A DNA stretch of 22,414 nucleotides, from positions 1 through 22,414 of IMG/VR virus record IMGVR_UViG_3300008117_001123. One strand, written 5' to 3'. The DNA is from a virus. Of this stretch, positions 4,454 to 21,468 are shown piece after piece. The translations under genes and the position numbers were made by a program. Within the stretch, counting starts at the first letter, position 1; every line of letters starts with the position of its first letter. The notes below the pieces were generated by a model. That model had not been told where the DNA came from. It searched no databases and saw only the letters and a program-made list of their open reading frames with translations.

Positions 4454-4455
4454 AG

Positions 4456-6621: not shown

Positions 6622-6629
6622 GGATTGCA

Positions 6630-6959
6630 ATGAAAAGCTTGGTATCGAATATCCGTGATTATTTTAATCGCAGGACAAAAGTTATAGATAGTCATAAGGA
6701 GGCTCATGTAAATCGGAAGACTCTGGTTATAGAAAATGGAGAGAGCGCACAAAAGCTCTTACGCAATGATGATTTTGCATTGTTATTTAACCTGTATAGG
6801 TTTTACTTGCTAGAAATGCTAGAAGAAAGCAAGGACGATGTTAATCGAATTGATAATGCACAGCGTGTTGCCGGAGTCCGAGACTTCATTGAGTTTATTG
6901 AACGAACTGAATATCTCGGTAAGGTAGCTAACAAAAATGTTGAAACTTTAACGAAATAA
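6630..6959 (+). CDS. Small helical protein between portal and scaffold
   Basis: This is a 109-residue, largely helical, charged protein. A basic N-terminal stretch (NIRDYFNRRTKV) is followed by long helices including DFALLFNLYRFYLLEMLEES and DFIEFIERTEYLGKV. No membrane segment or known motif is present. AAGGA at about 6620-6624 gives a good binding site, and part of it lies in the portal stop codon. Position between portal and scaffold suggests a head-assembly or connector-associated role, but the family is not recognised. Confidence 0.6.
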   Translation: MKSLVSNIRDYFNRRTKVIDSHKEAHVNRKTLVIENGESAQKLLRNDDFALLFNLYRFYLLEMLEESKDDVNRIDNAQRVAGVRDFIEFIERTEYLGKVANKNVETLTK

Positions 6960-6967
6960 GGTAATAT

Positions 6968-8077
6968 ATGTCAGACGTAATCGCAAATGCGACCGCCACT
7001 GAGCAAACTGGTGTGAATCCTGTAGATGCTATCGCAGGGATGATTGCCGCCAACAGGCGTAACAATCCCCAACCCGAAGCAGTTACACCACCAGCGGGAC
7101 AAGAAGAGGCGCAAGCCAAATCCCCCGAGGCGACTCCTGAAGAGGGGCTCGAACCTGAAGATGGTATTGATGGGACTACAGAAACTGTAGATTCTGAGGA
7201 TACGGATGAGGCCACCGATGGTGTAACCGAACCAATTAACTTCTTAGAGTTTGCAGAGCAGAATCCTGACATGATGTGGAGAATTCCCAATAAGGAAGCC
7301 GAAGGCGGTTTTATTGAGATTCCTGTATCTAAGGCGGCTGCCATTCTTGGTCAAGGAAGTGCTATCCATGAGAATGCTCGTAAGCTTAAAGCCGAAAAAG
7401 CAGATTTTGAAGAATACGAAAGTAATCGCAGGATTGAATTAGATGGTCTGCAAATAGGGTTGGAATTAACAATGGTTCCTCAGTTGCAACAAGCGGCTGA
7501 TGAATTGGTAAAAATCCAACAATATAACCAGCAATGGAAACAGATCTATGACAATGCTCCTGATGAAATTAGACGAAGTGAAGCTGAAGCAGCAATGCGT
7601 CAGAACAACGAGTTAATTCAGGAAAAGTCACAGTTCATTCAAGCGAATAGACCGAAAGTTCAACAGTTTTTTGATCACCGAAGTAAGGTTGTAAAGCAAC
7701 AGCTTGAACAAGCCCGACAAAACTTCACAGACAAAGAATTGGCGAACAAGGCAACATTTTCTGAATTACGGGAAAAGTTGTCTAAAGATTGGAAAGGTGC
7801 AAGTGGGACATTTGTTCCTGGTGTCCAAAACATTGATTTGGTATCCAGTGATGAGTATCTACTAGGACTTGTTCGGGATGGTATGAAATTCCGAGAAGGA
7901 CCTAAAGTGAAGAATGCAGGAGGTTCATTAGCTGCCGCTAGTAAACCAATGGCAAGAGGCAAGACAGCACCTGAAGATAAGTCGGTGGAACTTCAAAGGA
8001 AAGCGCAAAGCGGTGATAAGGGTGCGGCTCGTGACCTTTTAGCAACTATGCTTGCCGCTAATAAGCGGAGGCGTTAA
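6968..8077 (+). CDS. Scaffolding protein, head module A
   Basis: This 369-residue protein fits a phage scaffold, which fills the procapsid and guides coat assembly. Residues 35-95 are a long Glu/Asp/Pro/Thr-rich disordered stretch. Residues 125-265 are highly charged and helical, probably coiled-coil (KAEKADFEEYESNRR, QIQ-rich and KVVKQQLEQARQNF). The C-terminus is basic (KGAARDLLATMLAANKRRR), as expected for the coat-binding end. It is directly followed by the major capsid gene, the classical scaffold-capsid order. The start at 6968 follows GGTAATAT, a weak binding site. No protease motif is visible. The main alternative would be another head-internal protein, but composition and position make scaffold the best call. 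Confidence 0.75.
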   Translation: MSDVIANATATEQTGVNPVDAIAGMIAANRRNNPQPEAVTPPAGQEEAQAKSPEATPEEGLEPEDGIDGTTETVDSEDTDEATDGVTEPINFLEFAEQNPDMMWRIPNKEAEGGFIEIPVSKAAAILGQGSAIHENARKLKAEKADFEEYESNRRIELDGLQIGLELTMVPQLQQAADELVKIQQYNQQWKQIYDNAPDEIRRSEAEAAMRQNNELIQEKSQFIQANRPKVQQFFDHRSKVVKQQLEQARQNFTDKELANKATFSELREKLSKDWKGASGTFVPGVQNIDLVSSDEYLLGLVRDGMKFREGPKVKNAGGSLAAASKPMARGKTAPEDKSVELQRKAQSGDKGAARDLLATMLAANKRRR

Positions 8078-8090
8078 TTCAGGAGATATT

Positions 8091-9117
8091 ATGTCTACTA
8101 TTACATCGACATCCCTCGGTAACGGCAATGGAGCCTATGCTACCGACATCGTAGTTAAAGACCTCGACATGACTGTTTCTAACTATGTTAAAGACCGCAC
8201 TCCGGTTACTAACATGGCTATGAGCAAAAAGCGTAAAGTTAATTCAACTCTGCACATTTGGCCTAACGACTACTTCCGTGTACCCGCACTGAATGCTAAG
8301 TTGGAAGGTGCTGCCGTTGATGCGTCTGCTGCCGCTGACAACACACGTTCTAACTTGGGCAACTACACACAGATCTTTACGACTGTGATTGGTGCTACAG
8401 GTACAGCTCGTGCCGTTGAACAAGCTGGTGGTGACCCACAAGCATATCAAGAAGTCAAGCAATTGACTGAGATCATGTTTGACGTTGAGTTGCAGATGCT
8501 CCGTGCTGATGGTGCTTCCATCAAGTACTCTGGTCAAGCTGGTACACAGCCATCAGGCTCTACAACTGTTAACTCTGGTCGCAGATTCGGTTCTTTGTTC
8601 TCTTTTGCTGGAACACGCTCTGGTAACGACACAGACGGCACTTCAGTGTTGAACTTGGCTACTTCTGATAGCAATGACGTAACTTCTGCTGTTAACACAA
8701 ACACACCTTTCAATGGTGTTTTGTCTAACGCAGGTTTGGGTTACTTCACTTTCTCAAGTGGCGTGACACTGCAAGCTTTCAGCCCTGTGCTGTACAAGCA
8801 GTTGGTTACTACTGCTGAGCAACGCTTCAATGCCAAGATCACCAACATGGTGGTTCCAACATCTTTGCGTACTACTATCTCTGACAACATTCCTCAGAGC
8901 CGTTCTATCAACCGATTTAACCCTGCTGACAAGGGTGACACGATTGGTACATACGAAGGTGACTTCAACTACACCTACCAGATCGATGACTCATGGGTTA
9001 TGGATCAAACAGGTTCTGACAACACATCGATTCTGTTCTTGAATCCTGATGTTGTTCAGTGGGGTTCTTTGCGTGAACTTGCGTCCTACGGCTCAAGTCA
9101 AGCGTTACTTGTCTTAA
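8091..9117 (+). CDS. Major capsid protein A, SU10/DUF5309 type, 3' end frame-disrupted
   Basis: This is the shell protein of head module A. ATG 8091 has AGGAG at 8081-8085. The HK97-fold family of SU10-like major head proteins is recognised from NYVKDRTPVTNM (residues 31-42), LGNYTQIF (89-96), the aligned helix VKQLTEIMFDVELQMLRADG and the late strand ILFLNPDVVQWGSLR ending near residue 327. After that the family pattern stops. In frame 0 the reading frame continues through a terminator-like hairpin (9132-9155) into the next gene, with no stop until 9686. Frame +1 instead stops at TAA 9115-9117, just before the hairpin, giving a C-terminus ending in VKRYLS. I place the true end there, with a lesion between about 9069 and 9105. 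This is inferred, not proven. Confidence 0.75.
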
Positions 9118-9131
9118 TCCTAGTGTCTCTG

Positions 9132-9155
9132 AAGGGAATCCTAAGGGGTTCCCTT
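9132..9155 (+). terminator. Terminator-like hairpin after capsid A
   Basis: AAGGGAATCC (9132-9141) pairs with GGGTTCCCTT (9146-9155) around a TAAG loop: ten pairs, one of them a U-G wobble. It is followed by a short TTT run and then GGAG (9157-9160) and ATG 9165. The spacing matches two other hairpins here (18524-18548 and 18900-18920), also placed just before a Shine-Dalgarno. It probably reduces transcription beyond the very abundant capsid mRNA while leaving the downstream gene translatable. The lack of a long T-tract makes strong termination uncertain. Confidence 0.55.
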
Positions 9156-9164
9156 TGGAGAATC

Positions 9165-9686
9165 ATGGAGCAAAGCATGGAATTAAACTTAAATAATGAA
9201 GAAGCCAAAGTAAGCGAGGATTACTATACAAAGGGTATTCTCGAAGCTGGCATGGAAGGTGCGTTAATTAAAAACGACAAAATGTTCAACGAGGTTAAAT
9301 CGGGAACATGGTCGCAAACATTTAACACATCCAACATGAATTACAAGGTTGGAGCTATTGATGGTGAGCGTTATGTTCAATATGAACAAAAAAACGTAGA
9401 AAACATCAAGCTATATTGCAAAGAACGTAGAGAGTTTTATAAGATGATTGGCACAACGGATAATCCGATGTTTGCTGGCACTTTTGAAGCTATGAACTTG
9501 CCAAAGTGTTTTGCCCATGAAATAAGCGGAAAATGGTTTAACAACAGACCTTGGGAATTGATCAAAATGGACAAAAAAGACAAGATCCTTTTTTACGCCA
9601 TTGTGAACCAGTTTTACAGTGATTTTGTTTGCCACCCTAGCGGAAAAATTCCACTGCCTTATAATCCAATAGTCCCGACAAAATAA
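9165..9686 (+). CDS. Unknown protein between capsid A and adaptor A
   Basis: I read this as a separate gene of 173 residues even though the frame is open from the capsid gene. ATG 9165 has GGAG at 9157-9160 and follows a terminator-like hairpin. The amino-acid composition also changes from Thr/Ser/Ala-rich capsid to charged Asn/Lys/Glu-rich sequence. The protein starts MEQSMELNLNNEEAKVSEDY and contains ERREFYKMIGTTDNPMFAGT and a C-terminal ILFYAIVNQFYSDFVCHP. No motif or membrane segment is recognised. It could be a minor head or completion protein by position only. Confidence 0.55.
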   Translation: MEQSMELNLNNEEAKVSEDYYTKGILEAGMEGALIKNDKMFNEVKSGTWSQTFNTSNMNYKVGAIDGERYVQYEQKNVENIKLYCKERREFYKMIGTTDNPMFAGTFEAMNLPKCFAHEISGKWFNNRPWELIKMDKKDKILFYAIVNQFYSDFVCHPSGKIPLPYNPIVPTK

Positions 9687-9695
9687 GGATGTCTT

Positions 9696-10682
9696 ATGTC
9701 CCTTTTCATCCAATCTGCTAACGCACTTGTTAGCCGTATAGCACAATGGGTAGGGGCAATCCCAACAGCCTTAACAATTAACGCTACTGCGTTTAATTCG
9801 ACTACAAGTGTAATTACAACATCTGCTACACCTGTTGGATCTGTATTTATTGGTGATTTTATTGGGCCATCTGTAACGGGCGTTTACACAACTGTTTTGG
9901 CTGTATCTTCTACAACCATCACTGTTAGCGACCCAGACGGAACTTGGCAAGGTTTAACATTTCCTGTCAGCATTTTAAAGTACCCAACTCAATCAAGTAT
10001 TGAGATTTTGTCTTGCATTCAATTGTGCGAGTTAAAAATGCGTACCATTGAGTTGCCAGGTTTGCGTACAAATCCATATGGTAACAATCCTACTGTTTTA
10101 ACAACAGATGCCAATGGTTTTGCGCCTATTCCTGCTGACATGAATAAGCCTATTTTCTTTTTTCAAGAAACACCTAATAGTGCTGTCCCGCCAGGCACAC
10201 CTGCTGCTTCTATGGGTCCTTGGATTGTTTATGACCGAGTTGGTGATAGAGAAATTATTCGTAGACGCATGATTGACCAATTGTATGTGCGCCCATTTGG
10301 TGTGCCACGGGTTATTCGTGCTTCATTCTCTGAAGTAGGGCCTAATTATGTGTTTACGCCAAACCCTGGTGAAAACGTAGAAATCAAGGCGTATTATCAG
10401 CGCACATTCCCATTTCTTTTTGGGCCAACCGATGATGCTTTAGATCCTATTGTGCAAAATAACGCTTGTCTTGCCTCCTTCCCAGAAGGCTATATGTATG
10501 GCACATTATGGGCATATTACGATAAGAATAAAAACAATGATGAAGCCCAAAAATGGAATGCAAGATTTGAAGATGCATATGGTTTAATTGAAGATCAGAA
10601 TTTCAAAGGCAAGTGGTTGGGCGGTGACCAACACCTTACTTCTGAATTTCAGCCACGCAACTACAGATACAGTTTTAAGTGA
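9696..10682 (+). CDS. Head-tail adaptor A with an inserted beta domain
   Basis: This 328-residue protein joins portal and tail in SU10-like and T7-like phages (the SU10 adaptor family, comparable to T7 gp11). The helical core is split. Residues 1-20 (IQSANALVSRIAQWVG) form the first helix, and residues 98-121 (QSSIEILSCIQLCELKMRTI) resume it. Between them, about 25-95 form a Thr/Ser/Val-rich beta domain with FIGDFIGPSVTGVYTTVLAV. The late part has FAPIPADMNKPIFFFQ, VEIKAYYQRTFPFLF and a C-terminal helical stretch SFPEGYMYGTLWAYYDK, as in the family. TAAGGAT precedes the ATG. The insertion is unusual for this family and resembles a module in the tail fibre gene. Confidence 0.75.
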   Translation: MSLFIQSANALVSRIAQWVGAIPTALTINATAFNSTTSVITTSATPVGSVFIGDFIGPSVTGVYTTVLAVSSTTITVSDPDGTWQGLTFPVSILKYPTQSSIEILSCIQLCELKMRTIELPGLRTNPYGNNPTVLTTDANGFAPIPADMNKPIFFFQETPNSAVPPGTPAASMGPWIVYDRVGDREIIRRRMIDQLYVRPFGVPRVIRASFSEVGPNYVFTPNPGENVEIKAYYQRTFPFLFGPTDDALDPIVQNNACLASFPEGYMYGTLWAYYDKNKNNDEAQKWNARFEDAYGLIEDQNFKGKWLGGDQHLTSEFQPRNYRYSFK

Positions 10683-10691
10683 GCATAAAAA

Positions 10692-13600
10692 ATGGCAACA
10701 GGCGGTCTTTACGGAAATAGCGGAACTGGTGCTTTAATTGCTCAACCTGGTGCTGAGACACCTGGCTTGTATGGCAAAAGCCCCAATGGTTCTGTGGTTG
10801 CCCAACCTGGCAGCGAGTCTGCGGGTTTGTATGGCAACGGGACTACTTTTGGTGGTTACTATTTTGAATGGTTTGTTTTCCAAACAAGTGCAACTCAACC
10901 TGCTACGCCTACAGGTGGTTCTTGGAATTTTCAAACTGACTCTGGAACAGCACCTAGCGGTTGGACTAATGCGCCAGCGTCTAATCCTACAAATCCTGTA
11001 TGGATTTCCATTGCTCTTGTTAACTCTAGATCAACATCTCCTTTAGTTTGGTCAACGCCTGGCGTTTTGAGCTATTCAGGAACCATCAATGGTTCTGGTG
11101 CGCCTACTTCTGGCATTGGTCAGATTGGTGAGTTGTACATTCAAACGGGTGTAACTCCAAATGCTTTGTGGTTTAAGAGTGGTAGTACAACTTGGACTCA
11201 AATTACTGGTTCTGCGCTTTATGTTGATTTAACAAGCAGTCAAACTATTGCAGGAACTAAGACTTTTAGTAGCACGATTCAAGGTAACATTTCTGGAAAT
11301 GCAGGAACAGTTACTAATGGTGTTTATACCAATGGTACATATGTAGACCCTTCTTGGATTGCATCTTTGGCAGGTTCTAAGATTACGGGAAACATTTCTG
11401 GTAACGCTGCCAATGTAACGGGCACTGTTGCTATTGTTAATGGCGGTACAGGAGCCACTACAGCAAGTGGAGCAAGGACTAATCTTGGACTTGGTACGAT
11501 TGCTACTCAAGACGCTTCAAGTGTTGCTATCACTGGTGGGTCTATCACTGGTATTACCGACCTTGCTATTGCTGATGGTGGTACTGGAGCTTCTACAGCG
11601 GGTCAAGCGAGAACTAATTTGGGTTTGGGAACGGCTGCTGTCCTTGATAACACTGATGCGGTTACATCGGTAAACGGATTTACAGGCACTGTAGTTTTAA
11701 CTGCTGCCAATGTTAATGCGTTAGCCATTGCAAACAATTTGTCTGATCTGGCTGATGCGTCAACGGCTAGAACTAACTTGGGTTTAGGTACTGCGGCAAC
11801 GCAAAACAGCACAGCATTTGCTACTGCGGCTCAAGGTGCAACAGCAGATACGGCATTACAGACTGTTACGTCTGCCGATGGAAGTATTGTAGTTTTACAG
11901 TCTGGCACAAATATTGATTTGGCGGTATCTGCGGCATCCCCTGCTTCTACATTGTTAGCGCAAGTTCGTAATACAACAGGTGCAACCTTAACTAAAGGTA
12001 CGGCTGTTTATATTTCAGGTGCAACAGGGCAGATTTCAACTGTCTCAAAAGCATTGGCTAATAGTGACGCAACTTCGGCTCAAACACTAGGTTTAATAAC
12101 CGCAGATATAGCAAACAACTCAAATGGTTATGTTACTGTTATTGGTTTAATTACCAATACCAATACGTCTGCTTACACAGACGGACAACAACTATATCTA
12201 AGCCCAACAACGGCTGGTACATTAACTGCAACAAAGCCTTATGCCCCCCAGCATTTAGTGTATGTTGCCATTGTTGAACACGCACACCCAACGCAGGGTA
12301 AATTGTTTGTTAAGGTACAAAACGGCTACGAGATGGACGAGCTGCACAATGTGTCAGCGCAGTCTCCTACTACTGGACAGACTCTTGTTTACAACGCAAG
12401 TACATCACTCTGGGAAAAATCATTTGCCCCAATTATCAACGGCACTACAATCAACAACACCACAATAGGAGCAACAACACCCTCTACAGGTGTGTTTACT
12501 ACGCTTACATCAAATAGTACATCTGAGTTTGGTAAAGGTTCTGCTCAGTACATTCGTGCTGTTGGAGATGCAACTGCTCCTGTATTGTCAGCACAAGGTA
12601 GCGGAACAAACATTGACTTTAACGTCACTACCAAAGGCTATGGCTCGTTTAAAATCAATGACGCTGGTGGAACTATTGCTGAATTTAACGATGGCGGTTC
12701 TGGCACTCCAGTCAACTCATTTTTGTTTGCCGCTGGTGGAGCGTCTGGTACGCGTGCGCTTATTCGCGCAATGGGTGGCCCAATTACGCTTCTTTCAACA
12801 GGGTCTAATTCTGTAAACTTTGCAACCAATGGCGCATCGGGAAACATTCAAGCATTAGTTTCCCACACCGCCTCCGCAGTAAACTATGTTCAAGTAACTG
12901 GTGCGGCTACTGGTGGTGCTCCTGCAATAACTTCTCAAGGTTCAGATGCCAACATTGGTTTAAGTTTTTCTACTAAGGGTGCTTTCAATACATCGTTTAG
13001 GTCAGGTAATGGCTCATGGGTTCAGTTTGTAGTTAATGGCGCAAACAACTCGGTAAATTATCTTTCCGCCGCTGGCTCTGTTTCAAACCAAGCCCCTGTC
13101 CTGTCTTCAGTAGGCTCCGACACAAACATCTCCCAAGTATTCCAATCCAAAGGCACAGGAGCAATAGACCTAGCCGCAGGTAGTTCAGGGGTTAATATTT
13201 CTAATGGTGGTACTGTTACTGCTATTACGAGGACTGCTTCGGGTTCTGGATATACGAGTTTTCCGACATGGACAGCTTCAGCACCGACAACCGCTGGAGG
13301 CGCAACAGCAAGCGGAACACCTACAAACATGACAGCAAGTGGTTTTACAGTTGCTTCTGGTGGTACAGGTTACACAGTCGGTAATGTGCTTACAGTCACA
13401 GGTGGAAGCACTGGTAATTGCACATTAACTGTAACTGCGGTTTCTTCTGGTGCTGTTACGGCAGCAACACTTGCCACTACTGTTTCATACACTGCTTTAC
13501 CAACAAACCCTGTTTCAGTAACAGGAGGTACGGGTTCTGGAGCTACTTTTAACCTTACTTATGGTATTGGGAATAGCCTAACCATCACCAACGCAGGTTC

Positions 13601-15599
13601 AGGCTATGTTGAACAACCAACAGTAACCTTTAGCGGTGGCGGTGGTTCTGGTGCGGCGGCTTATGCGACTGTTGGTGCTACGGCTACTATCAAAGGCTTG
13701 TACGGAGGCAACTCACAGATTCCAATTCAGTTTGCAGGACCTGCGGGAAATATTCTTCAATTGATGGAGTCAGGGACAACATCTTCACCAACTGCACTTG
13801 TTATCAAAACAGGTGGTTCATCGGCACAGATGTATCCATCTTTGACAAACTCATCATTGTCGTTTTCAGCGAGTGGAACATCGCCAATTGATTTTTATAC
13901 GGGCGTATTGAGTGCGCTACAAGCCCGAGTAGCCCACACAGCCTCTGCTGTTAACTATGTACAGGTTACAGGGGCGGCTACTGGTTCAGGGCCAACAATT
14001 TCATCGCAAGGCTCTGACGCTAATGCAAGGTTGTTGCTGAACTCAAAAGGCTCATCTAGCGGTATTGATTTGCTGATGAACAATAGCCGTCAGGTTTTCA
14101 TTGGAACAAACGGCTCTGCGGTCAACTACTGGTTAATGGGTGGGTCGACTGCTGGTTTTGGCCCTGTCCTGTCTGCTCAAGGTTCTGATACCAATATCCC
14201 TGCTGTTGTCCAACCAAAAGGAACAGGAGCATTACAAGCCCAACAAACAGACTCTACTGCTACTGGTGGTAATGCACGAGGTGCTAATGCTGTTGATTGG
14301 CAGACTGCTAGGGACGCGGCTTCACGGGTTGCTAGTGGACAATACTCAGTTGTTACAGGCGGCTATGCCAACACCGCAAGCGGAACTGCATCTCTGTCGG
14401 GAGGATTTTTAAATAACAACAGCGGAAACTTCTCGTTTCTCGGTGGTGGAGCAGGTCAAAACTTAGCGGGTAGTTATGCTGTTATTGCTGGTGGGTGGGC
14501 TAATACTGCCTCTGGCTTTATAAACTTTATTGGTGGCGGTTATGGCAACTCTGGAACTTCTGGTTCTGCTGTAACTACACAATCTGGGACGATGAACGCT
14601 ACCACAGCGGTAACATTGTCAAGTTCCAACGCCAACATCAAAGTTGGTCAGTACATTTCAGGTACTTCAATCTCTAACGGAACTTACGTTGCCGCAATCT
14701 CAGGAACAAGCCTAACACTATCTCAAGTAGCATCAGGCTCAAGCACATCTACTCTATCTTTCTTTACTCCTCACGGGGTAGTTGTAGGAGGAGGAAATAA
14801 CCAAGCCACAGGCTCTTACAGTTTCATCGGTGGTGGTGGTGATGCAGGGACTGCGGCTAATCGTAATGTGGCTTCTGGGGATTGGAGTAAGGTTGGCGGT
14901 GGACGAAACAATACCGCATCAGGCGCTGGCTCAGTTGTTGGCGGTGGTGGCTATTACAGCGGGATTGGTTCATCAAATGTTGGTAACACTTCCGCAGGCG
15001 ATGGTTCGTTTGTGGGTGGTGGATTTTTAAACCAAGCCCAATCTTTTGGTTCTTCTGTTTTAGGCGGCTACACAAACATTGCAAATGGAACTTATTCTGT
15101 AATTCTTGGTTCTGCTTTTGGAACTGCAAGGGGTATTCAAGGTAATACAGTAGCCCCTGCTTCTGCAAACCCAATGAATGTAGGTTCAGCAGGTGTATGC
15201 CAAACTGCATTACTTATTCTTGCCGTTCAAACCACAGACGCTACTGCAACAGTATTGCGCTCAAGTACAGCCGCCGCAGGAACGACTAACCAAGTAATCC
15301 TACCCAACAACTCTGCCTACTATTTCCGTGGTGAAGTTGTATCAGGTGTTACAGGCGGTGGAAACACTAAAGGATGGACTATTGAGGGTGTGATTAAACG
15401 TGGTGCTAATGCCGCCTCTACTGCCCTTGTAGGAACACCAACAGTCACATCCAGTTACGCAGACGCAGGTGCATCTACTTGGACAATTGCAGTAACAGCC
15501 GATACGACAAATGGTGGTTTAGCAGTAACATTCACTGGTCAGGCATCGACTACCATCAGAACTGTCGCCCAAATCCGCACAACCGAAATGACCTATTAA
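10692..15599 (+). CDS. Giant mosaic tail fibre/receptor-binding protein
   Basis: This 1635-residue protein is probably a trimeric fibre that contacts the host surface. Its modules are: three GLYG units at residues 5, 25 and 45 with a 20-residue period; a beta-rich segment to about 250; three copies of RTNLGLGT at 262, 307 and 360; repeats containing 'GSDTNI/GSDANI' and 'SKGTGAI' between about 628 and 1190; and YadA-head-like repeats (SVVTGGYANTASG, GNFSFLGGGAG, GSYAVIAGGWANTASG) from about 1210 to 1295 and 1362 to 1480. A different beta domain splits these repeats at about 1305-1358. A conserved C-terminal knob fills about 1497-1635 (WTIEGVIKRGANAASTALVG, DTTNGGLAVTFTGQA). The ATG has only a weak GTGAG upstream. 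It directly follows the adaptor. Confidence 0.88.
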   Translation: MATGGLYGNSGTGALIAQPGAETPGLYGKSPNGSVVAQPGSESAGLYGNGTTFGGYYFEWFVFQTSATQPATPTGGSWNFQTDSGTAPSGWTNAPASNPTNPVWISIALVNSRSTSPLVWSTPGVLSYSGTINGSGAPTSGIGQIGELYIQTGVTPNALWFKSGSTTWTQITGSALYVDLTSSQTIAGTKTFSSTIQGNISGNAGTVTNGVYTNGTYVDPSWIASLAGSKITGNISGNAANVTGTVAIVNGGTGATTASGARTNLGLGTIATQDASSVAITGGSITGITDLAIADGGTGASTAGQARTNLGLGTAAVLDNTDAVTSVNGFTGTVVLTAANVNALAIANNLSDLADASTARTNLGLGTAATQNSTAFATAAQGATADTALQTVTSADGSIVVLQSGTNIDLAVSAASPASTLLAQVRNTTGATLTKGTAVYISGATGQISTVSKALANSDATSAQTLGLITADIANNSNGYVTVIGLITNTNTSAYTDGQQLYLSPTTAGTLTATKPYAPQHLVYVAIVEHAHPTQGKLFVKVQNGYEMDELHNVSAQSPTTGQTLVYNASTSLWEKSFAPIINGTTINNTTIGATTPSTGVFTTLTSNSTSEFGKGSAQYIRAVGDATAPVLSAQGSGTNIDFNVTTKGYGSFKINDAGGTIAEFNDGGSGTPVNSFLFAAGGASGTRALIRAMGGPITLLSTGSNSVNFATNGASGNIQALVSHTASAVNYVQVTGAATGGAPAITSQGSDANIGLSFSTKGAFNTSFRSGNGSWVQFVVNGANNSVNYLSAAGSVSNQAPVLSSVGSDTNISQVFQSKGTGAIDLAAGSSGVNISNGGTVTAITRTASGSGYTSFPTWTASAPTTAGGATASGTPTNMTASGFTVASGGTGYTVGNVLTVTGGSTGNCTLTVTAVSSGAVTAATLATTVSYTALPTNPVSVTGGTGSGATFNLTYGIGNSLTITNAGSGYVEQPTVTFSGGGGSGAAAYATVGATATIKGLYGGNSQIPIQFAGPAGNILQLMESGTTSSPTALVIKTGGSSAQMYPSLTNSSLSFSASGTSPIDFYTGVLSALQARVAHTASAVNYVQVTGAATGSGPTISSQGSDANARLLLNSKGSSSGIDLLMNNSRQVFIGTNGSAVNYWLMGGSTAGFGPVLSAQGSDTNIPAVVQPKGTGALQAQQTDSTATGGNARGANAVDWQTARDAASRVASGQYSVVTGGYANTASGTASLSGGFLNNNSGNFSFLGGGAGQNLAGSYAVIAGGWANTASGFINFIGGGYGNSGTSGSAVTTQSGTMNATTAVTLSSSNANIKVGQYISGTSISNGTYVAAISGTSLTLSQVASGSSTSTLSFFTPHGVVVGGGNNQATGSYSFIGGGGDAGTAANRNVASGDWSKVGGGRNNTASGAGSVVGGGGYYSGIGSSNVGNTSAGDGSFVGGGFLNQAQSFGSSVLGGYTNIANGTYSVILGSAFGTARGIQGNTVAPASANPMNVGSAGVCQTALLILAVQTTDATATVLRSSTAAAGTTNQVILPNNSAYYFRGEVVSGVTGGGNTKGWTIEGVIKRGANAASTALVGTPTVTSSYADAGASTWTIAVTADTTNGGLAVTFTGQASTTIRTVAQIRTTEMTY
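10704..10841 (+). repeat. 60-bp coding repeat encoding GLYG units
   Basis: Three copies of the residue unit GLYGxS...AQPG..., each 20 residues, start the tail fibre (GLYG at residues 5, 25 and 45). The DNA copies are clearly related but diverged. A short, exactly periodic repeat at the extreme N-terminus may form the attachment to the adaptor/nozzle or be a spacer. This is a direct sequence observation; the role is inferred. Confidence 0.7.
12864..14240 (+). repeat. Large duplicated fibre module
   Basis: HTASAVNYVQVTGAATG occurs at 12864 and again at 13935, each followed by a 'QGSDAN' stretch and then, after about 60 residues, by 'VGSDTNI/QGSDTNI ... KGTGA' ending. The two units are about 110 residues each and differ in DNA, so the duplication is old. 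Between them lies a beta-rich segment with GSGYT and GSGYVEQP turns (13190-13690). A further single 'APVLSAQGSGTNIDFN' unit precedes the first copy near 12573. Confidence 0.7.
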
Positions 15600-15610
15600 G
15601 GAGAACTCAA

Positions 15611-15880
15611 TTGGCACTACGCATACAAGCAACTAATTCAACAAACGGACAACAGGAAACCCAAGCCTATGCCCGTATCACTAACTTCTTTGGTACTAAA
15701 GACCAAGTACAAGTACAAGTGGAAATCCATGCAACAGAGGAAGCCCGTCAAGCAGGATGGCCTTCTATTCAGCAACAGGCTCATTACATCAACATGAGCG
15801 ACATTCAGGGTGACTTTATCCCTGCGCTTTACAATGTTCTGAAGACTTTTACCCAGTATTCTGGCTCAACAGACGTTTAA
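15611..15880 (+). CDS. Small 89-residue protein after the fibre gene, TTG start (paralogue 1)
   Basis: I start this at TTG 15611 because AAGGAG (15598-15603) lies seven bases upstream; no ATG fits. With Met, the first residues are MALRIQATNST. The protein has 89 residues. It aligns end to end with the gene at 16100-16369, also 89 residues. EAR is at 44-46 here (43-45 there), ALYNVLK at 72-78 here aligns with ALYQIIK at 72-78 there, and both begin MAL. The fold is probably a beta sheet then a C-terminal helix. The place right after the fibre gene suggests a fibre-associated or assembly role, but nothing in the sequence shows this. No known family is recognised. Confidence 0.65.
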   Translation: MALRIQATNSTNGQQETQAYARITNFFGTKDQVQVQVEIHATEEARQAGWPSIQQQAHYINMSDIQGDFIPALYNVLKTFTQYSGSTDV

Positions 15881-15889
15881 GGAGAAAAC

Positions 15890-16090
15890 ATGGATGATTC
15901 TGTTATAGAAGATTTTGCCGTGATGTGTTATCAAGAAGACTACAGAGAATACTACTATGAGTATTTGATTGAAGATTCGGATGAAGATTCTGATAAAACA
16001 CAAAAAACTATTTCAGGAACTGGCAAAGATACAGATATTTCTATGCAGTTTATGCCTAAAGGCACAGGCGTAATTTCTGTTAACTTTTAA
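15890..16090 (+). CDS. Small acidic protein ending in a fibre repeat
   Basis: This is a 66-residue protein. The first 40 residues are very acidic and Tyr-rich (YREYYYEYLIEDSDEDSDKT). The last 24 match the repeating fibre unit: 'GTGKDTDISMQFMPKGTGVI' resembles 'GSDTNISQVFQSKGTGAI' in the large fibre at about 13100. The start has AAGGAG directly in the previous stop codon region (TTTAAGGAGAAAACATGG). It looks like a domain copy captured from the fibre gene and joined to a new acidic N-terminus. It could compete with or cap fibre repeats, or be a relic; function is unknown. Confidence 0.6.
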   Translation: MDDSVIEDFAVMCYQEDYREYYYEYLIEDSDEDSDKTQKTISGTGKDTDISMQFMPKGTGVISVNF

Positions 16091-16099
16091 GGAAAACAA

Positions 16100-16369
16100 A
16101 TGGCTTTGATTAAAACTGTAGACACAGACTTTGGCGTATCTGCCGAGTATTGGAACATTGGTGCTGTTCAAGAAGACTTTAAAGGTCGTGGAACAGAGAT
16201 AACCTTTTACGGCTACGCAAGCAAAGAAGCCCGTGATTCTGGCAAACAACCTTTAAGCGCAGGCAAGGTACAGATTTCTGGTGACGAATATGTAGCAGGT
16301 GCAGACCGAGCAGCCCTTTATCAAATCATCAAGCAAAAGCCTGAGTTTGAAGGTGCTGAAGACGCATGA
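16100..16369 (+). CDS. Small 89-residue protein (paralogue 2)
   Basis: This is an 89-residue protein with the same length as the gene at 15611-15880 and conserved positions (EAR at 43-45, ALYQIIK at 72-78, MAL at the start), so I read them as paralogues. It starts MALIKTVDTDFGVSAEYWNI, with a beta-rich first half and a helix near the end. AAGGAAAAC precedes the ATG by about five bases. The stop overlaps the next ATG as ATGA. The family is not recognised. Its neighbours (fibre, head module B) suggest a structural or accessory role. Confidence 0.65.
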   Translation: MALIKTVDTDFGVSAEYWNIGAVQEDFKGRGTEITFYGYASKEARDSGKQPLSAGKVQISGDEYVAGADRAALYQIIKQKPEFEGAEDA

Positions 16370-16593: not shown

Positions 16594-16777
16594 TTACGTC
16601 TGTGAAAACGGACACAAAACAGAAAAGTTTGTTGTTTATGAGGCAACGAACTTGAAGTGTGAGTGTGGGGCTTTGGCTACACGTTCACTAGCAGAAACTC
16701 AACTCATAAGCAATTATGCCGAGTTGAATCTCCTAGAACCCATTGCGGCAGGAAAAGGAAATAAGTATGTTGATTGA
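16577..16777 (+). CDS. Small zinc-ribbon-like protein (FmdB-like)
   Basis: This 66-residue protein begins MKRFYDYVCENGHKTEKFVV, the start of a FmdB-type zinc ribbon (YDYxCxxCGHxFE). Visible potential ligands are Cys 9, His 13, Cys 28 and Cys 30 (LKCECG). The first knuckle therefore has one Cys and a His where the classic form has two Cys. The C-terminus (NYAELNLLEPIAAGKGNKYVD) is unstructured. It overlaps both neighbours, so it is translated with them. Such proteins are frequent next to scaffold genes in podovirus-like genomes; a specific function is not established. Metal binding here is inferred. Confidence 0.65.
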   Translation: MKRFYDYVCENGHKTEKFVVYEATNLKCECGALATRSLAETQLISNYAELNLLEPIAAGKGNKYVD

Positions 16778-17510
16778 CAATGAAAAAGAAGAGTTTGGTG
16801 AGTTAGAGATCGAAGAGCAGAAGATTTCGCAAAAGGCTGAACTCCCTGAGAAATACAGGGATAAAAGTTTAGATGACATTGTGAAGATGCACCAAGAGGC
16901 TGAAAAGCTCATTGGTAAGCAAGCACAAGAAGTAGGCGAAGTCCGTAAGTTAGCCGATGAACTCATTAAGCAGAACCTTGGTTCTAGACAACAACAGACT
17001 AGACAGGAAGAGCCTGAAGTAGATTTCTTTGAGAATCCTCAGAAGGCAGTTCAAAGGACAGTTGACAGTCACCCTGACATCATTGCGGCTAGACAAGCCA
17101 CTTTAGAGATGAAAAGGGCGCAGATTCAGCAGAAGTTAGCTAGTGAGCATCCTGATTTTGGCGATATTGCTAAAAATGAGGACTTTACGAATTGGGTTAA
17201 ATCTAGCCCAGTACGGATTGATTTGTTCAAGAAAGCTGATGCAGAATTCGACTATGATTCAGCCAATGAACTGTTATCGACTTACAAGGAACTTCGCTCT
17301 GTCAAACAGAAGCAATCGAGTGATGCTGGAGAAGCCACTCGGAAGCAGAATTTGAAGGCAGCGGGGGTAGATGTAGGCGGTTCTGGAGAGTCCTCAAAAC
17401 GAGTTTATCGTAGGGCTGACCTTATTCGGCTAAAAATGCAAGACCCCAATCGGTATGAGGCACTTTCAGATGAAATTATGACCGCATACCAAGAAGGTCG
17501 TGTCAGGTAA
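16767..17510 (+). CDS. Scaffolding protein, head module B
   Basis: This 247-residue protein is very charged and helical with no motif of an enzyme. The N-terminal half includes EFGELEIEEQKISQKAELPE and long Glu/Lys/Gln helices. A linker EEPEVDFFENPQKAVQRTV leads to MKRAQIQQKLASEHPDFGDI. The C-terminus is basic (KRVYRRADLIRLKMQDPNRY). Order (zinc ribbon, this gene, capsid B) and composition match a scaffold. It shows no sequence similarity I can see to the scaffold of module A. I chose ATG 16767 with AAGGAA just upstream over the in-frame TTG at 16743. The gene overlaps the zinc-ribbon stop. Confidence 0.72.
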   Translation: MLIDNEKEEFGELEIEEQKISQKAELPEKYRDKSLDDIVKMHQEAEKLIGKQAQEVGEVRKLADELIKQNLGSRQQQTRQEEPEVDFFENPQKAVQRTVDSHPDIIAARQATLEMKRAQIQQKLASEHPDFGDIAKNEDFTNWVKSSPVRIDLFKKADAEFDYDSANELLSTYKELRSVKQKQSSDAGEATRKQNLKAAGVDVGGSGESSKRVYRRADLIRLKMQDPNRYEALSDEIMTAYQEGRVR

Positions 17511-17534
17511 GATTTAACTTTTGGAGATTTAATT

Positions 17535-17948
17535 ATGGCTAATACAGCTTTTGCACCCAATAACGCAACCACAGTAACAACCTCAGCAACGTTCATTCCA
17601 GAAATTTGGAGTGATGAAATTGTTGCCAGTTACAAGAAAAACCTTGTTCTAGCGAACTTGGTTATGAAGATGAACTTCAAGGGCAAGAAAGGTGACACAG
17701 TTCACATTCCAGCCCCTGGTCGTGGTTCAGCTTCTGCCAAAACCGCTACCGATGCAGTTACCTTGATTGTTGACACAGCATCTGAGATTCAAGTTTCTAT
17801 CAACAAGCACTATGAATATAGCCGCTTGATCGAGGACATTGCTGAAGCGCAAGCCTTGAACTCTATGCGTAACTTCTACACCTCTGACGCAGGTTATGCC
17901 TTGGCTAAACAAGTCGATACAGACTTGATTCAGTTGGGTCGTTCTTGA
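17535..17948 (+). CDS. Major capsid protein B, N-terminal part (broken by duplication)
   Basis: This is the first 137 codons of a second, unrelated HK97-fold coat protein, of a type frequent in marine podovirus contigs. ATG 17535 follows GGAG. The family is recognised from TFIPEIWSDEIVASYKKNLV, MNFKGKKGDTVHIPAPGRG and INKHYEYSRLIEDIAEAQAL. Translation stops at TGA 17946-17948 because a 20-bp tandem duplication (17925-17964) shifts the frame. If one copy is removed, residues run DTDLIQLGRSSNGGAGT without a break into the C-terminal part, giving about 317 residues in total. The sequence itself shows the duplication; whether it is biological or an assembly artefact is not known. Confidence 0.85.
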   Translation: MANTAFAPNNATTVTTSATFIPEIWSDEIVASYKKNLVLANLVMKMNFKGKKGDTVHIPAPGRGSASAKTATDAVTLIVDTASEIQVSINKHYEYSRLIEDIAEAQALNSMRNFYTSDAGYALAKQVDTDLIQLGRS

Positions 17949-17964
17949 TTCAGTTGGGTCGTTC
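17925..17964 (+). repeat. Exact 20-bp tandem duplication inside capsid B
   Basis: TTGATTCAGTTGGGTCGTTC at 17925-17944 is repeated exactly at 17945-17964. The preceding base is C in both cases. Twenty is not a multiple of three, so the reading frame is broken. Removing either copy restores the conserved capsid frame. Such a short exact tandem copy is typical of replication slippage or of a failed overlap collapse in assembly. Confidence 0.95.
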
Positions 17965-18508
17965 CTCTAATGGTGGTGCGGGAACAAACGCCTACGCAAC
18001 TGGTGCTTTTGTGGGTGGTGATGGTACAACAGCCTACGTTGCTGGTAGCAACAATGAGTCTGCTTTGACCGATGCTGCCATTCGTCGCACTATTCAGCGT
18101 TTGGACGACAACGATACTCCTATGGATGGTCGTTTCTTCATCATTCCTCCTTCAAGCCGTAACACGTTGATGGGTCTTGCCCGTTACACTGAGCAGGCTT
18201 TTGTGGGTGATGGCAATGCGATCCGTAATGGTGAAATCGGTAACCTTTATGGTATCCCTGTGTTCACATCTAGCAACTGCGATACAACCAGTGGTTCTGG
18301 CGCTGCTCGTGTCTGCCTGATGGGTCATAAAGACTCTATGGTTCTGGTTGAGCAAGTTGGTATCCGTTCACAAGTCCAGTACAAACAAGAGTACCTTGCT
18401 ACTCTGTTTACTTCTGACACTTTGTATGGTGTTGCCGCCTTGAGGAAAGCCGCTACTGTTGGTGCAGCTACTTCCTCTTCATTCTTTGCCTTGATCGTAC
18501 CTGCCTAA
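17945..18508 (+). CDS. Major capsid protein B, C-terminal part
   Basis: This is the rest of the coat protein after the duplication, 187 codons. It opens with IQLGRSSNGGAGTNAYATGA, part of which is the second copy of the duplicated sequence. Coat-like features follow: RLDDNDTPMDGRFFIIPPSS, GNLYGIPVFTSSNCD and a C-terminal SDTLYGVAALRKAATVGAAT. A TTG at 17945 is available, but I see no specific binding site in front of it, so this part would not be made efficiently on its own. It is best read as one gene with 17535-17948. A strong terminator follows at 18524-18554. Confidence 0.85.
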   Translation: MIQLGRSSNGGAGTNAYATGAFVGGDGTTAYVAGSNNESALTDAAIRRTIQRLDDNDTPMDGRFFIIPPSSRNTLMGLARYTEQAFVGDGNAIRNGEIGNLYGIPVFTSSNCDTTSGSGAARVCLMGHKDSMVLVEQVGIRSQVQYKQEYLATLFTSDTLYGVAALRKAATVGAATSSSFFALIVPA

Positions 18509-18523
18509 GCAGTTGCCATCTTT

Positions 18524-18554
18524 CCCCCTGCCTTAACGGGTGGGGGGGTTTTTT
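18524..18554 (+). terminator. Rho-independent terminator after capsid B
   Basis: CCCCC (18524-18528) pairs with GGGGG within the run at 18542-18548. A further CC/GG pairing (18531-18532 with 18538-18539) encloses a TTAAC loop, with an unpaired TG/GT internal loop between the two stem parts. Six T follow (18549-18554). This is the strongest terminator in the window and lies just before AGGAGG (18560-18565) and the next ATG 18573. Confidence 0.8.
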
Positions 18555-18572
18555 AATCTAGGAGGATAAATT

Positions 18573-18896
18573 ATGGCGACCGCATCCGCAGTAACAGTAC
18601 GTCGTGGTAACGACCAGTTTCGTGGCCTTTTCAGTGATACATGGGTAGTTCGTGCTACTTTGGACGCTGGTTCATTGGTCGATGGCGCTGGTGAAACTGA
18701 CGACATTACAATCCCTGGCGTGGCCTTGGGTGATATGGTTATCGGTGCATCTTTGGGCGTGGACTTAGTTGGTTTGACAGTAACAGGTTATGTTTCTGCC
18801 GCAAACACAGTTAAATTCCGTATTCAAAATGAATCTGGTTCAACCGCTGACTTAGCATCTTCAACATTGCGAATTGTTGTAGCTCGCATGGTCTAA
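18573..18896 (+). CDS. Small beta protein, possible capsid decoration
   Basis: This 107-residue all-beta protein has TLDAGSLVDGAGETDDITIP, MVIGASLGVDLVGLTVTGYV and SAANTVKFRIQNESGSTADL. I recognise a recurring small protein placed after the capsid in marine and freshwater phage contigs. Decoration of the head is the usual guess for such proteins, but I cannot verify it. It has a very strong binding site (AGGAGG) and sits between two terminators, so it is probably made at high level. Confidence 0.6.
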   Translation: MATASAVTVRRGNDQFRGLFSDTWVVRATLDAGSLVDGAGETDDITIPGVALGDMVIGASLGVDLVGLTVTGYVSAANTVKFRIQNESGSTADLASSTLRIVVARMV

Positions 18897-18899
18897 TCT

Positions 18900-18923
18900 A
18901 AGGGGGCTAATAACCCCCTTTTT
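18900..18923 (+). terminator. Rho-independent terminator
   Basis: AAGGGGG (18900-18906) pairs with CCCCCTT (18914-18920) around CTAATAA, and three more T follow (18921-18923). The next gene's GGAG (18927-18930) and ATG 18936 come immediately after, so the terminator and translation start are nearly adjacent. Confidence 0.8.
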
Positions 18924-18935
18924 CTCGGAGTTCTT

Positions 18936-19127
18936 ATGGCAACCTTTCAATGCTTACAAAGCGGTAACACAGTTACTTTCACATATCAACACGATATTGA
19001 CACAATGAAAGGTCATCAGGGCTATGTCAGAATAGATGAAGTTAAAGAAGAAACTTCTGAAAAGCAAATAGTCTTGCAACCTCCAGTTAAGAAGGTTGGA
19101 CGACCTAAGAAAGTCGAAAATGTCTGA
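18936..19127 (+). CDS. Small protein of unknown function
   Basis: This 63-residue protein begins MATFQCLQSGNTVTFTYQHD and contains DIDTMKGHQGYVRIDE, then a basic tail (KKVGRPKKVENV) that looks like a short AT-hook (GRPKK). GGAG at 18927-18930 precedes the start after the terminator. It overlaps the next gene by eight bases. It belongs to a class of small proteins found after capsid genes; function is unknown. Confidence 0.6.
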   Translation: MATFQCLQSGNTVTFTYQHDIDTMKGHQGYVRIDEVKEETSEKQIVLQPPVKKVGRPKKVENV

Positions 19128-19323
19128 AATTGACCCAAGAGAATTTGGTAAATTGGAAGCCCAAGTTGAGGCTTTACAGATAGAAGTTCATGGACTTCGC
19201 CAAGATATTAAACTGCTTTTAGAGATGGCTAATAAGTCTAAAGGCGGTATGTTTGTAGGAATGGCTATTGCATCCTTTATTGGTGGCTTAGTCACATTTG
19301 TTGCTGATCGACTTTGGAAATAA
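19120..19323 (+). CDS. Holin-like small membrane protein
   Basis: This is a 67-residue protein with a coiled-coil N-terminus (EFGKLEAQVEALQIEVHGL, residues 8-26, heptad Leu/Val pattern), a second helix QDIKLLLEMANKSK and one transmembrane segment (FVGMAIASFIGGLVTFVAD) with a short basic end. This resembles the coiled-coil plus single-membrane-span layout of XhlA-type proteins found near lysis genes. It overlaps the preceding gene by eight bases. I chose ATG 19120 over an in-frame start further upstream. Lysis is a guess from the layout, as no endolysin is seen in the window. Confidence 0.6.
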   Translation: MSEIDPREFGKLEAQVEALQIEVHGLRQDIKLLLEMANKSKGGMFVGMAIASFIGGLVTFVADRLWK

Positions 19324-19333
19324 GGAGCATATT

Positions 19334-19519
19334 ATGCCTATGGTTGGAAAAAAGAAGTTTCCCTACTCTGAAGAGGGCAAGAAAGAAGCCAAAGAGTACG
19401 GCAAGAAAAAGGGTATGCCTGTAACCATTATGATTGCTGTTGGTAAGCCTAAAGGTCTGCCTACCCGTGGTGGTCGTACTGCTACAAACATGATGAAAAA
19501 ATCAGGTCGTGGCAAATGA
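19334..19519 (+). CDS. Small basic protein with GKKKFPYSEEGKKEA motif
   Basis: This 61-residue protein is very basic: MPMVGKKKFPYSEEGKKEAK, then KEYGKKKGMP, VTIMIAVGKPKGLPTRGGRT and a KKSGRGK tail. The ATG has AAGGAG at 19322-19327. The pattern matches small basic proteins that recur in podovirus head clusters. I suspect a virion-internal, DNA-associated role, but this is inferred from charge only. Its stop overlaps the next ATG (ATGA at 19516-19519). Confidence 0.65.
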   Translation: MPMVGKKKFPYSEEGKKEAKEYGKKKGMPVTIMIAVGKPKGLPTRGGRTATNMMKKSGRGK

Positions 19520-19662
19520 AACAAGGTCTTTACGCAAACATTAAAGCTAAACAAGATCGCATAAAGGCGGGTTCTGGCGAGAAGATGCGTAAGGTTGGTT
19601 CTAAAGGCGCTCCTACTGCAAAGGACTTTAAGCAAGCAGCTAAGACTGCTAAAAAGAAATGA
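19516..19662 (+). CDS. Very small basic protein (48 aa)
   Basis: This is a short gene bounded by ATGA overlaps on both sides. Its protein is MKQGLYANIKAKQDRIKAGS followed by GEKMRKVGSKGAPTAKDFKQ and a final AAKTAKKK. The pattern 'LYANIxAK..RIxAGSGEKMRK.G.KGAPTA..F..AAKTAKK' is one I know from related phages just before the DUF6321 gene, so it is a real gene. It is very basic with no membrane segment. The function is unknown and probably virion-associated. Confidence 0.75.
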   Translation: MKQGLYANIKAKQDRIKAGSGEKMRKVGSKGAPTAKDFKQAAKTAKKK

Positions 19663-20279
19663 GCATCCCAGAAGGATTAGACAAATCGACTGTAGATCGG
19701 TTGGTTTTGTCTCATAGTACGTGGAAACATCTTTTTTACCGATGCTATTCAAAAGTAAGTCCAGACTACAAAAACTATGGTGGTCGTGGAATTGATGTGC
19801 ATCCATCATGGCATGGTGACGATGGGTTTTATCAATTTATCCAAGATGCTGGACTAAGACCTTCAAAAGATTACAGTCTTGATAGGATTGATGTCAATAA
19901 AGGCTATTCACCAGAAAACGTGAAATGGTCGACTAACATTGAGCAAGCCAATAATCGAAGGAATAGCAAGCGGTACTTGTTTGAGGGCGAAAATCTTACG
20001 TTGGCTGAAATTGCTAGAAAAACAGGAATTGACTACCAGAGAATCTGGAAAGCAACAAAGGTTTATGGCAATCCATTAGAGCATACAAAAATTGACCCAG
20101 ATCGTGGGAAACGTATGTATCAAGGTGAATTACGCTCAACAACTGAAATTGCCAAAATGGTTAATATGAAGCCAGGAACTCTTATGCGAAGACTAAGAAA
20201 TGGCTTAGATTTTGATTTAGCTATTGCACTTCCACTTCAAGCTGGTGTACACTTCAGGGAAAGATCATTATGGTCTTAA
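19659..20279 (+). CDS. HNH-type homing endonuclease with two C-terminal HTH repeats
   Basis: This 206-residue protein is a freestanding homing endonuclease. The N-terminal nuclease part holds YKNYGGRGIDV (residues 37-47), SLDRID (73-78), YSPENVKW (83-90) and EQANNRRN (95-102), the usual spacing in this HNH-like family. The C-terminal half holds two helix-turn-helix DNA-binding repeats: FEGENLTLAEIARKTGIDYQ, about 108-127, and QGELRSTTEIAKMVNMKPGT, about 155-174. The ATG overlaps the upstream stop as ATGA (19659-19662), and its end overlaps the start of the next gene by ten bases. It lies between the 48-aa gene and the DUF6321 gene, which are normally adjacent. Confidence 0.85.
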   Translation: MSIPEGLDKSTVDRLVLSHSTWKHLFYRCYSKVSPDYKNYGGRGIDVHPSWHGDDGFYQFIQDAGLRPSKDYSLDRIDVNKGYSPENVKWSTNIEQANNRRNSKRYLFEGENLTLAEIARKTGIDYQRIWKATKVYGNPLEHTKIDPDRGKRMYQGELRSTTEIAKMVNMKPGTLMRRLRNGLDFDLAIALPLQAGVHFRERSLWS

Positions 20280-20821
20280 AAAAATACCAGAATCCAAAAG
20301 GCGGATTAAATGAGGAAGGTCGTGAGTTCTACAAAAGAACTGAAGGACTAGACCTCAAAAAGCCTTTAAAAACGGGTAATTCAGGTCGACGATCTAGTTT
20401 TTTAGCACGTATGGGCAATATGCCTGGCGCTGAGATGAAAGATGGGAAGCCGACTCGACTCCTATTATCTCTTAGAGCTTGGGGCGCAACGTCCAAAGAA
20501 GATGCCAAAGCGCCTACAGCCGCAACGCTGACTACTGTTTATACAGTTCCTACGGGTTACTACGCCAAATTTACAGTCATGTACGTCCACAATACGGGTG
20601 GATCAACAAAACACATTACTGTGGTGTGGAATGATGCAAGTGCCGCTACTTCCCATGACATCCTGACTGAATACAATTTCACTTCTAAGCAATACCTTCA
20701 ATTTGATGGCGCTGCTTATATCGTTTTAGAAGAGGGCGATAAGATTCAAATTACGACTGAAGCTGGAAGTTCATTCAGTTTTATTGCTACTTTTGAACAA
20801 ATAGGATTAACAAGAGCATGA
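20270..20821 (+). CDS. DUF6321 domain fused to a beta-sandwich domain
   Basis: This is a 183-residue protein in two parts. Residues 3-72 match the small DUF6321-type phage protein (KYQNPKGGLNEEGREFYKRT, then SGRRSSFLARMGNMPG and KPTRLLLSLRAWG). Residues 78-183 are a beta sandwich (TTVYTVPTGYYAKFTVMYVH, IVLEEGDKIQITTEAG, SFIATFEQIGLTRA) like small virion beta proteins that are often separate. In my experience DUF6321 proteins normally end shortly after the RAWG-like motif, so this is probably a fusion. The start overlaps the endonuclease by ten bases, and the stop overlaps the adaptor ATG (ATGA). The function is unknown; a virion role is likely. Confidence 0.7.
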   Translation: MVLKKYQNPKGGLNEEGREFYKRTEGLDLKKPLKTGNSGRRSSFLARMGNMPGAEMKDGKPTRLLLSLRAWGATSKEDAKAPTAATLTTVYTVPTGYYAKFTVMYVHNTGGSTKHITVVWNDASAATSHDILTEYNFTSKQYLQFDGAAYIVLEEGDKIQITTEAGSSFSFIATFEQIGLTRA

Positions 20822-21468
20822 CTACATACCTTCAAGCTGTTAATGACGTTCTTGTTCGACTCAGAGAAGAGGAAGTCTCTACTGTTACCGAAACAAGTTA
20901 TTCCTCTTTGATTGGAAAGTTTGTCAATGATGCCAAACGTCAAATTGAAGATTCTTATGAGTGGAATATTTTGGGGACAACTATTGTTGTTTCTACTGTG
21001 GCTGGCACTTCTTCTTACTCTCTAACGGGGGCGGGGCAGAAGTTCCGTGTTCAAGACGTTATCAATGATACGAATAACACTGGGATGAAAAACATCCCTT
21101 TTGTTAACATGAATCGTTATTTGAACTTTGGGACTGTCTCTAATGGTGTTCCTTTGTACTATGCTTTTGATGGTGTAGATGCCAGTTACGACACAAAAGT
21201 AACTGTATTTCCTATTCCTGATAGCGTGGTAAGTCTAAGATTTAGCTTGGTCGTGCCACAAGCACCATTGAGTGCTGATGGTACTGTGATTCTGATGCCG
21301 TCTGAATTGGTGGTTCAGAGTGCTTATGCTCGTGCTTTGGTTGAGCGTGGTGAAGATGGTGGTCTATCGTCTTCTGAGGCTTATCAGTTATACAGGTCTA
21401 TGTTGTCTGACTACATTTCGACAGAAGCAACACGTTACCCTGAGTTTGGCTCTTTTGAGGCTGTCTAA
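20818..21468 (+). CDS. Head-tail adaptor B (T7 gp11-like)
   Basis: This 216-residue protein fits the head-tail adaptor/tail tubular A family that binds the portal and starts the tail. It has the N-terminal helix pair (YLQAVNDVLVRLREEEVSTV, SLIGKFVNDAKRQIEDSYEW), a beta part with SSYSLTGAGQKFRVQDVIN, and a C-terminal helical block (QSAYARALVERGEDGGLSSS, EAYQLYRSMLSDYI). Unlike adaptor A it has no inserted domain. It is coupled to both neighbours: ATGA with the gene before and TAATG (21466-21470) with the gene after. It pairs with the nozzle protein next to it. Confidence 0.75.
   Translation: MTTYLQAVNDVLVRLREEEVSTVTETSYSSLIGKFVNDAKRQIEDSYEWNILGTTIVVSTVAGTSSYSLTGAGQKFRVQDVINDTNNTGMKNIPFVNMNRYLNFGTVSNGVPLYYAFDGVDASYDTKVTVFPIPDSVVSLRFSLVVPQAPLSADGTVILMPSELVVQSAYARALVERGEDGGLSSSEAYQLYRSMLSDYISTEATRYPEFGSFEAV

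Follow-up and report, generated by a model that had tools for sequence, protein, structure and literature searches.

The window, a stretch of viral DNA of 22,414 nucleotides, comprises positions 1 to 22,414 of the IMG/VR record IMGVR_UViG_3300008117_001123. The open reading frame (ORF) described here, called X (15890-16090), is located downstream of a gene for a long fibre-like protein, between two small genes called A (15611-15880) and B (16100-16369). The features of this region are:

10692..15599, plus strand: fibre-like protein of 1,635 aa which carries repeat units (from the ORF and a unit search)
13095..13178, plus strand: fibre unit PVLSSVGSDTNISQVFQSKGTGAIDLAA, residues 802-829 (from the unit search and a profile)
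14163..14246, plus strand: fibre unit PVLSAQGSDTNIPAVVQPKGTGALQAQQ, residues 1158-1185 (from the unit search and a profile)
15611..15880, plus strand: gene A, 89 aa, phrog_18037 (a PHROG family without known function), TTG start in the window
15880..15884, plus strand: AGGAG, predicted ribosome-binding site of X, overlapping the stop codon of A (from the sequence)
15890..16090, plus strand: X, ORF of 66 aa; residues 1-38 acidic and tyrosine-rich, residues from about 40 to 64 one fibre repeat unit
15971..15994, plus strand: tandem stretch coding for EDSDEDSD, with a 12-bp unit; one unit more in the related contig L001 (from sequence comparison)
16004..16087, plus strand: residues 39-66 of X, fibre-like unit plus the final residues (from a profile match)
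16100..16369, plus strand: gene B, 89 aa, phrog_5084 (a PHROG family without known function)

X has an ATG start codon, 66 codons and a TAA stop codon, with AGGAG 5 bases 5' of the ATG, and its TAA overlaps the ribosome-binding site of the next gene. Both the gene and its own binding site are as given in a preliminary description of this DNA, as is the acidic and tyrosine-rich nature of the N-terminal part: residues 1-38 contain 14 aspartate or glutamate, 2 lysine or arginine and 6 tyrosine residues. Opposite the acidic part, on the minus strand, an antisense ORF for a hydrophobic peptide of 45 aa (49 aa in L001) extends over 15866-16003 and is probably a by-product of the repeat codons in this part of X. 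The same description had taken A and B for paralogues, a relationship that is not secured: BLASTP delivered no alignment, and profile-profile comparison gave 24% identity over 54 columns with a probability of 13.7% and an E-value of 0.002. The predicted structure of A (score 87.4) has eight BFVD matches at E <= 0.001, six of them uncharacterised phage proteins and two nameless, and no PDB match at this threshold, and its best VIA Z is 4.5, so that A provides no functional clue. Gene B occurs twice, approximately 27 kb apart, on the 46,225-bp contig IMGVR_UViG_3300042516_001195 (L021, which is the same as L062).

In X, GKDTDI is followed after 6 residues by KGTG, which is the spacing of the fibre (GSDTNI, 6 residues, KGTG). 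A profile was constructed from 184 distinct 28-residue fibre units of the ORFs of the fetched loci, with X left out; the seed pattern required KG.G, and the profile is therefore biased to a KG.G core. With this profile X scored 26.8 bits (i-E 1.6e-6 among 11,495 ORFs and 4e-6 among 28,820). Shuffling X 100,000 times gave a maximum of 13.5 bits versus 27.2 for the real protein, and shuffling its last 28 residues 100,000 times gave a maximum of 19.0 versus 30.3. A weaker profile, for which the adjoining fibre alone supplied five units, recovered X at E 0.0035 and the copy in L001 only at 0.08. When the record containing the window was searched at the protein level, the fibre unit at 13095-13169 (E 5.2e-4) was found besides X itself. 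Among the 28,820 ORFs of 328 sequences, 216 contained units at i-E <1e-3, but the only closed ORFs of less than 200 aa with a unit at i-E <0.1 were X, its re-fetched copy L002 and the copy in L001; the other ORFs of this size with a unit at i-E <0.1 (L007, L013 and L067) are each cut by the contig start. On the basis of the profile score, the shuffle controls and this ORF survey, the resemblance of the C-terminal unit of X to the fibre units is, at the level of the sequences compared, one of homology. The view that X ends in a copy of the fibre repeat thus holds for approximately the last 25 residues, and an alignment arising by chance, which the preliminary description had also considered, does not agree with the shuffling results. 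The repeat also matched Salicola phage SCTP-2, but at E 6, and this match was discarded.

In spacing and consensus the unit of X equals the repeat units (GSDTNI-x6-KGTG) of fibres located beside A or B. These units, however, occur singly or severally within long ORFs (closed ones at least 200 aa), whereas X consists of a single unit in 66 aa behind an unrelated acidic N-terminal part. Such a single free-standing fibre unit is exceptional among the 328 sequences compared.

The source of the unit was searched for at the DNA level in 327 sequences in which X had been masked. The best alignments reached 73-74% over 61-66 nt (E 3.4e-4) and belong to the distant fibres L192, L197 and L243, exact runs of more than 15 nt shared with the X unit were absent from these sequences, and the window's own fibre and that of L001 do not appear among the 14 best DNA matches listed. 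Among the protein units of the first loci compared, one in L009 comes closest (15/24 residues identical), as compared to 12/24 for the best unit of the window's own fibre. Recent duplication from the adjoining fibre is ruled out by these values, and as no fibre unit compared exceeds approximately 73-74% DNA identity to that of X, X was not freshly broken off that fibre. The earlier idea of a captured fibre fragment is therefore upheld as far as homology to the fibre units is concerned, with an origin in another or an older fibre rather than in the adjoining one. For the N-terminal part, phmmer found no relative in 11,495 ORFs except L001, and tblastn found none in phages, in a search whose low-complexity filter may mask acidic stretches. 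An IMG/VR search for a fibre ending in the X-type tail (KGTG-V/A-I-x-VNF-TAA) delivered only L001.

A scan of IMG/VR with X peptides revealed one relative, contig L001 (IMGVR_UViG_3300017766_000068), in which the copy of X occupies the same place between A and B; it shares 90% identity with X in the best segment, and the match spans all 66 residues. Further IMG/VR pattern scans, one of them with a narrow pattern, returned this contig only, none of 53 pattern matches in genome_contigs was confirmed, and the whole X protein had no match in the phage collection at E up to 10; none of these searches extends beyond close relatives. The loci compared around B are 80 of 212 found and those around A 80 of 283 found, and the junction was counted in the 31 distinct contigs, including the window, which hold both A and B. 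Here the junction is empty, with a gap of 6-14 nt, in 23 contigs, and carries X in two (the window and L001). Five contigs have other inserts, which were named by eye as fibre-like genes in three and an HNH-like gene in two, and in one contig B precedes A. The inserts are located at L034 4020-4970, L059 3832-4981, L035 4192-4985, L057 4262-4912 and L149 5254-5925; some consist of fibre-like genes plus a small following gene, others are HNH-like (by eye). The junction is also empty in L084, which shares 98.2% identity with the window over 16690-19525. X represents a clean 210-bp insertion between A and B, flanked by the similar stretches TTTAAGGAGAAAACATGG and TTTAAGGAAAACAAATGG. Of the homologous short genes in related phages for which the preliminary description had asked, these searches delivered one, and 28 of the 30 contigs with A followed by B lack X.

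Between the window and L001, X differs by three substitutions in 198 nt, all of them replacements and none silent, and by one extra 12-bp repeat unit (EDSD) in L001. A and B show 22 silent codon changes each per 89 codons, together with 6 (A) and 11 (B) replacement codons. The contrast in silent change, 0/66 codons in X versus 44/178 in A plus B, is significant (Fisher p 2.7e-7), and near-identical copies of X between diverged A and B genes indicate a recent exchange: as judged from these two contigs, X would have moved lately between the two lineages or been overwritten by the other's copy, the divergence of A and B being older. Recombination, to which the preliminary description had alluded, is supported by the clean insert, by a junction that takes other inserts and by a near-identical X in two diverged backgrounds. 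As an outcome that would speak against its view, the description had named absence of X from close relatives together with a lack of constraint. The absence applies to the 28 contigs mentioned; with respect to constraint, the two copies provide no silent and three replacement changes, and for two copies only the probability of finding no silent change among three without selection is 0.54. The EDSD difference says nothing on selection on X, because a 12-nt unit preserves the frame anyway.

The fibre gene is located between two head modules. The first one (2861-10682) precedes it and comprises a terminase, an SU10-type portal, an SU10-type capsid protein and an SU10-type adaptor; the second one (16743-21468) follows it and comprises a scaffold-like protein, a capsid protein (phrog_267) and a second SU10-type adaptor. 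In the best 80 of 124 first-adaptor loci found, 58 of which extend at least 7 kb past the adaptor, A, the second capsid gene and the scaffold gene are absent within the stretch compared, and B is present in one. The seven second-module loci inspected (L012, L033, L042, L084, L087, L115 and L127, with L042 and L087 on the same contig) have a different fibre N-terminus and a different preceding gene. L248, which ends at position 12621 of the window, shows full identity to it from 9082 onwards, and its terminase-to-adaptor proteins are 100% identical. It contains approximately 260 bp more (9626-9886) relative to window positions 11644-11648, with identical flanks, which suggests a fibre repeat collapsed in one of the assemblies. 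From approximately 12,850 on, the window's fibre is far nearer to fibres of the A/B type than to those of the adaptor type, and the window is probably a chimera, produced in assembly or by recombination, whose join falls within the fibre gene, after approximately 12,621 and before approximately 13,200. Some fibres followed by A share earlier parts as well (L088 and L096 with as much as 93% over residues 301-540; L099 83% to the N-terminus of the window's fibre), so that, judging from these similarities, the fibre may be a natural mosaic, which counts against a simple join, although a join within this gene is still likely. Such a join leaves X untouched, because L001 independently shows A, X and B followed by the second module.

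Two further observations concern the capsid genes. The second one (17535-18508) is divided into two overlapping frames near 17945, whereas its copy in L001 is a single frame of 317 aa; the split is likely a sequencing or assembly slip. In the first capsid ORF (8052-9686), residues 31-343 match the SU10 capsid profile, followed by approximately 200 residues of another kind, possibly through a frame-slip fusion with the next gene.

The codon score of the X frame is 0.257, as compared to 0.229 for A and 0.347 for B, and the other five frames of X are negative; within X, the C-terminal part reaches 0.411 and the N-terminal part 0.143. This likeness to A and B makes a coding past of X likely. The codon evidence is modest, however, because the 90th percentile of the 245 stop-free stretches of 45-90 codons in the window (all frames, real genes included) is 0.282 and the gene at 16366 scores -0.031. 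X might be a chance open frame in leftover DNA which is not expressed, as would suit its rarity, its short length, a codon score below that percentile and the lack of a sign of constraint in its three substitutions. The frame, the ribosome-binding site and the codon usage argue against this, as does the unit, whose likeness to fibre units is greater in the protein than in the DNA sequence and thereby points to protein-level selection on it at some time; we consider this explanation very unlikely. A weak stem at 16050-16073, with T-rich bases after it, is located inside the X ORF.

X has no match in Pfam, NCBIfam or the models of PADLOC, a library of defence and not of counter-defence systems, and its PDB matches are at chance level (best E 0.61). 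Its only PHROGs match is phrog_3834 (no known function; E 0.012 for X and 0.077 for the copy in L001), and its predicted structure has a low pLDDT (50.1) that did not warrant a fold search. The excess of acidic residues in the N-terminal part and the accessory distribution would be compatible with a small acidic protein whose job lies apart from the fibre, such as blocking a factor of the host or of a rival phage, with the unit serving only as a stable beta tail. With chance-level or absent matches in the above libraries, a position among late structural genes and no promoter-like site on the plus strand at X in a scan for the sigma-70 type, such a role appears unlikely.

The main rival explanation is that X is a working fibre accessory, in which the unit would pair with shaft units by strand addition and the acidic part would shield, cap or solubilise the fibre at assembly or release. 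The shared unit, the place in the fibre cassette between A and B and an intact ORF with a ribosome-binding site in two phages are in line with this. By analogy, host-recognition cassettes of a fibre and a small partner gene, exchanged between phage families, are described for Alteromonas phages A5 and V22, and transient fibre caps from a separate gene of the host-recognition module have been proposed in Alteromonas phages (PMC10579305). The likeness to these cassettes lies in fibre-linked small genes beside different head genes; the difference is that X is not obligatory and was very seldom encountered in the searches, and that any chaperone role of X is putative. A chaperone or cap should be present with its fibre in relatives, but X is found in only 2 of the 31 contigs with A and B, and its absence from 28 of the 30 contigs with A and B in this order means that such fibres generally manage without it. 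No family match of X suggests a chaperone, and the low-confidence model of X speaks neither for nor against binding; the accessory role is regarded as possible but less likely than a passenger. In a far less probable and speculative variant, X would be a mimic of the fibre unit which inserts a single unit into growing trimers, of its own phage or of a co-infecting one that shares the repeat, and would thereby modulate or disrupt the fibre assembly of the rival.

We judge it likeliest, with about even confidence, that X is a real but dispensable accessory ORF, a passenger derived from a fibre and carried in a fibre cassette subject to shuffling. This agrees with the unit homology, the prevalence of empty junctions (also in L084), the single further carrier in IMG/VR with none confirmed in genome_contigs, the lack of silent change in X as compared to A and B, the other inserts taken by the junction and the coding past suggested by codon usage. 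On the other side, both copies of X are intact with a good ribosome-binding site, as expected for a useful gene, the codon evidence is as limited as described, dispensability is not provable from two copies, and a near-identical donor of the unit was not found in the 327 sequences.

If X is such a passenger, an acidic, tyrosine-rich N-terminal piece would have been joined to one unit of the fibre-repeat family, either by fusion with a unit of another fibre or long enough ago for the DNA to have diverged. X would then have travelled as a cassette, recombining at similar junctions of stop codon, ribosome-binding site and start codon between genes of the fibre region; a candidate junction sequence of this kind, TTTAAGGA...ATGG, stands on both sides of X. 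X is probably translated along with A and B, and the gain for the phage may be little or none. A phage moron is an extra gene inserted between conserved genes. X is similar to morons in being a clean insert between genes that are direct neighbours in most of the relatives compared, but differs in having no promoter of its own in the sigma-70 type scan, other promoter types lying outside its coverage. Among the titles and beginnings of abstracts listed for phage fibre repeats and de novo genes, none describes X, which is not proof of its absence in print.

The case of X would weigh more if its unit bound the fibre. It is a small and well-bounded case of the birth and movement of short genes in phage host-recognition regions: sites with and without the insert are both seen, its limits are clear and the family of the donor can be recognised.
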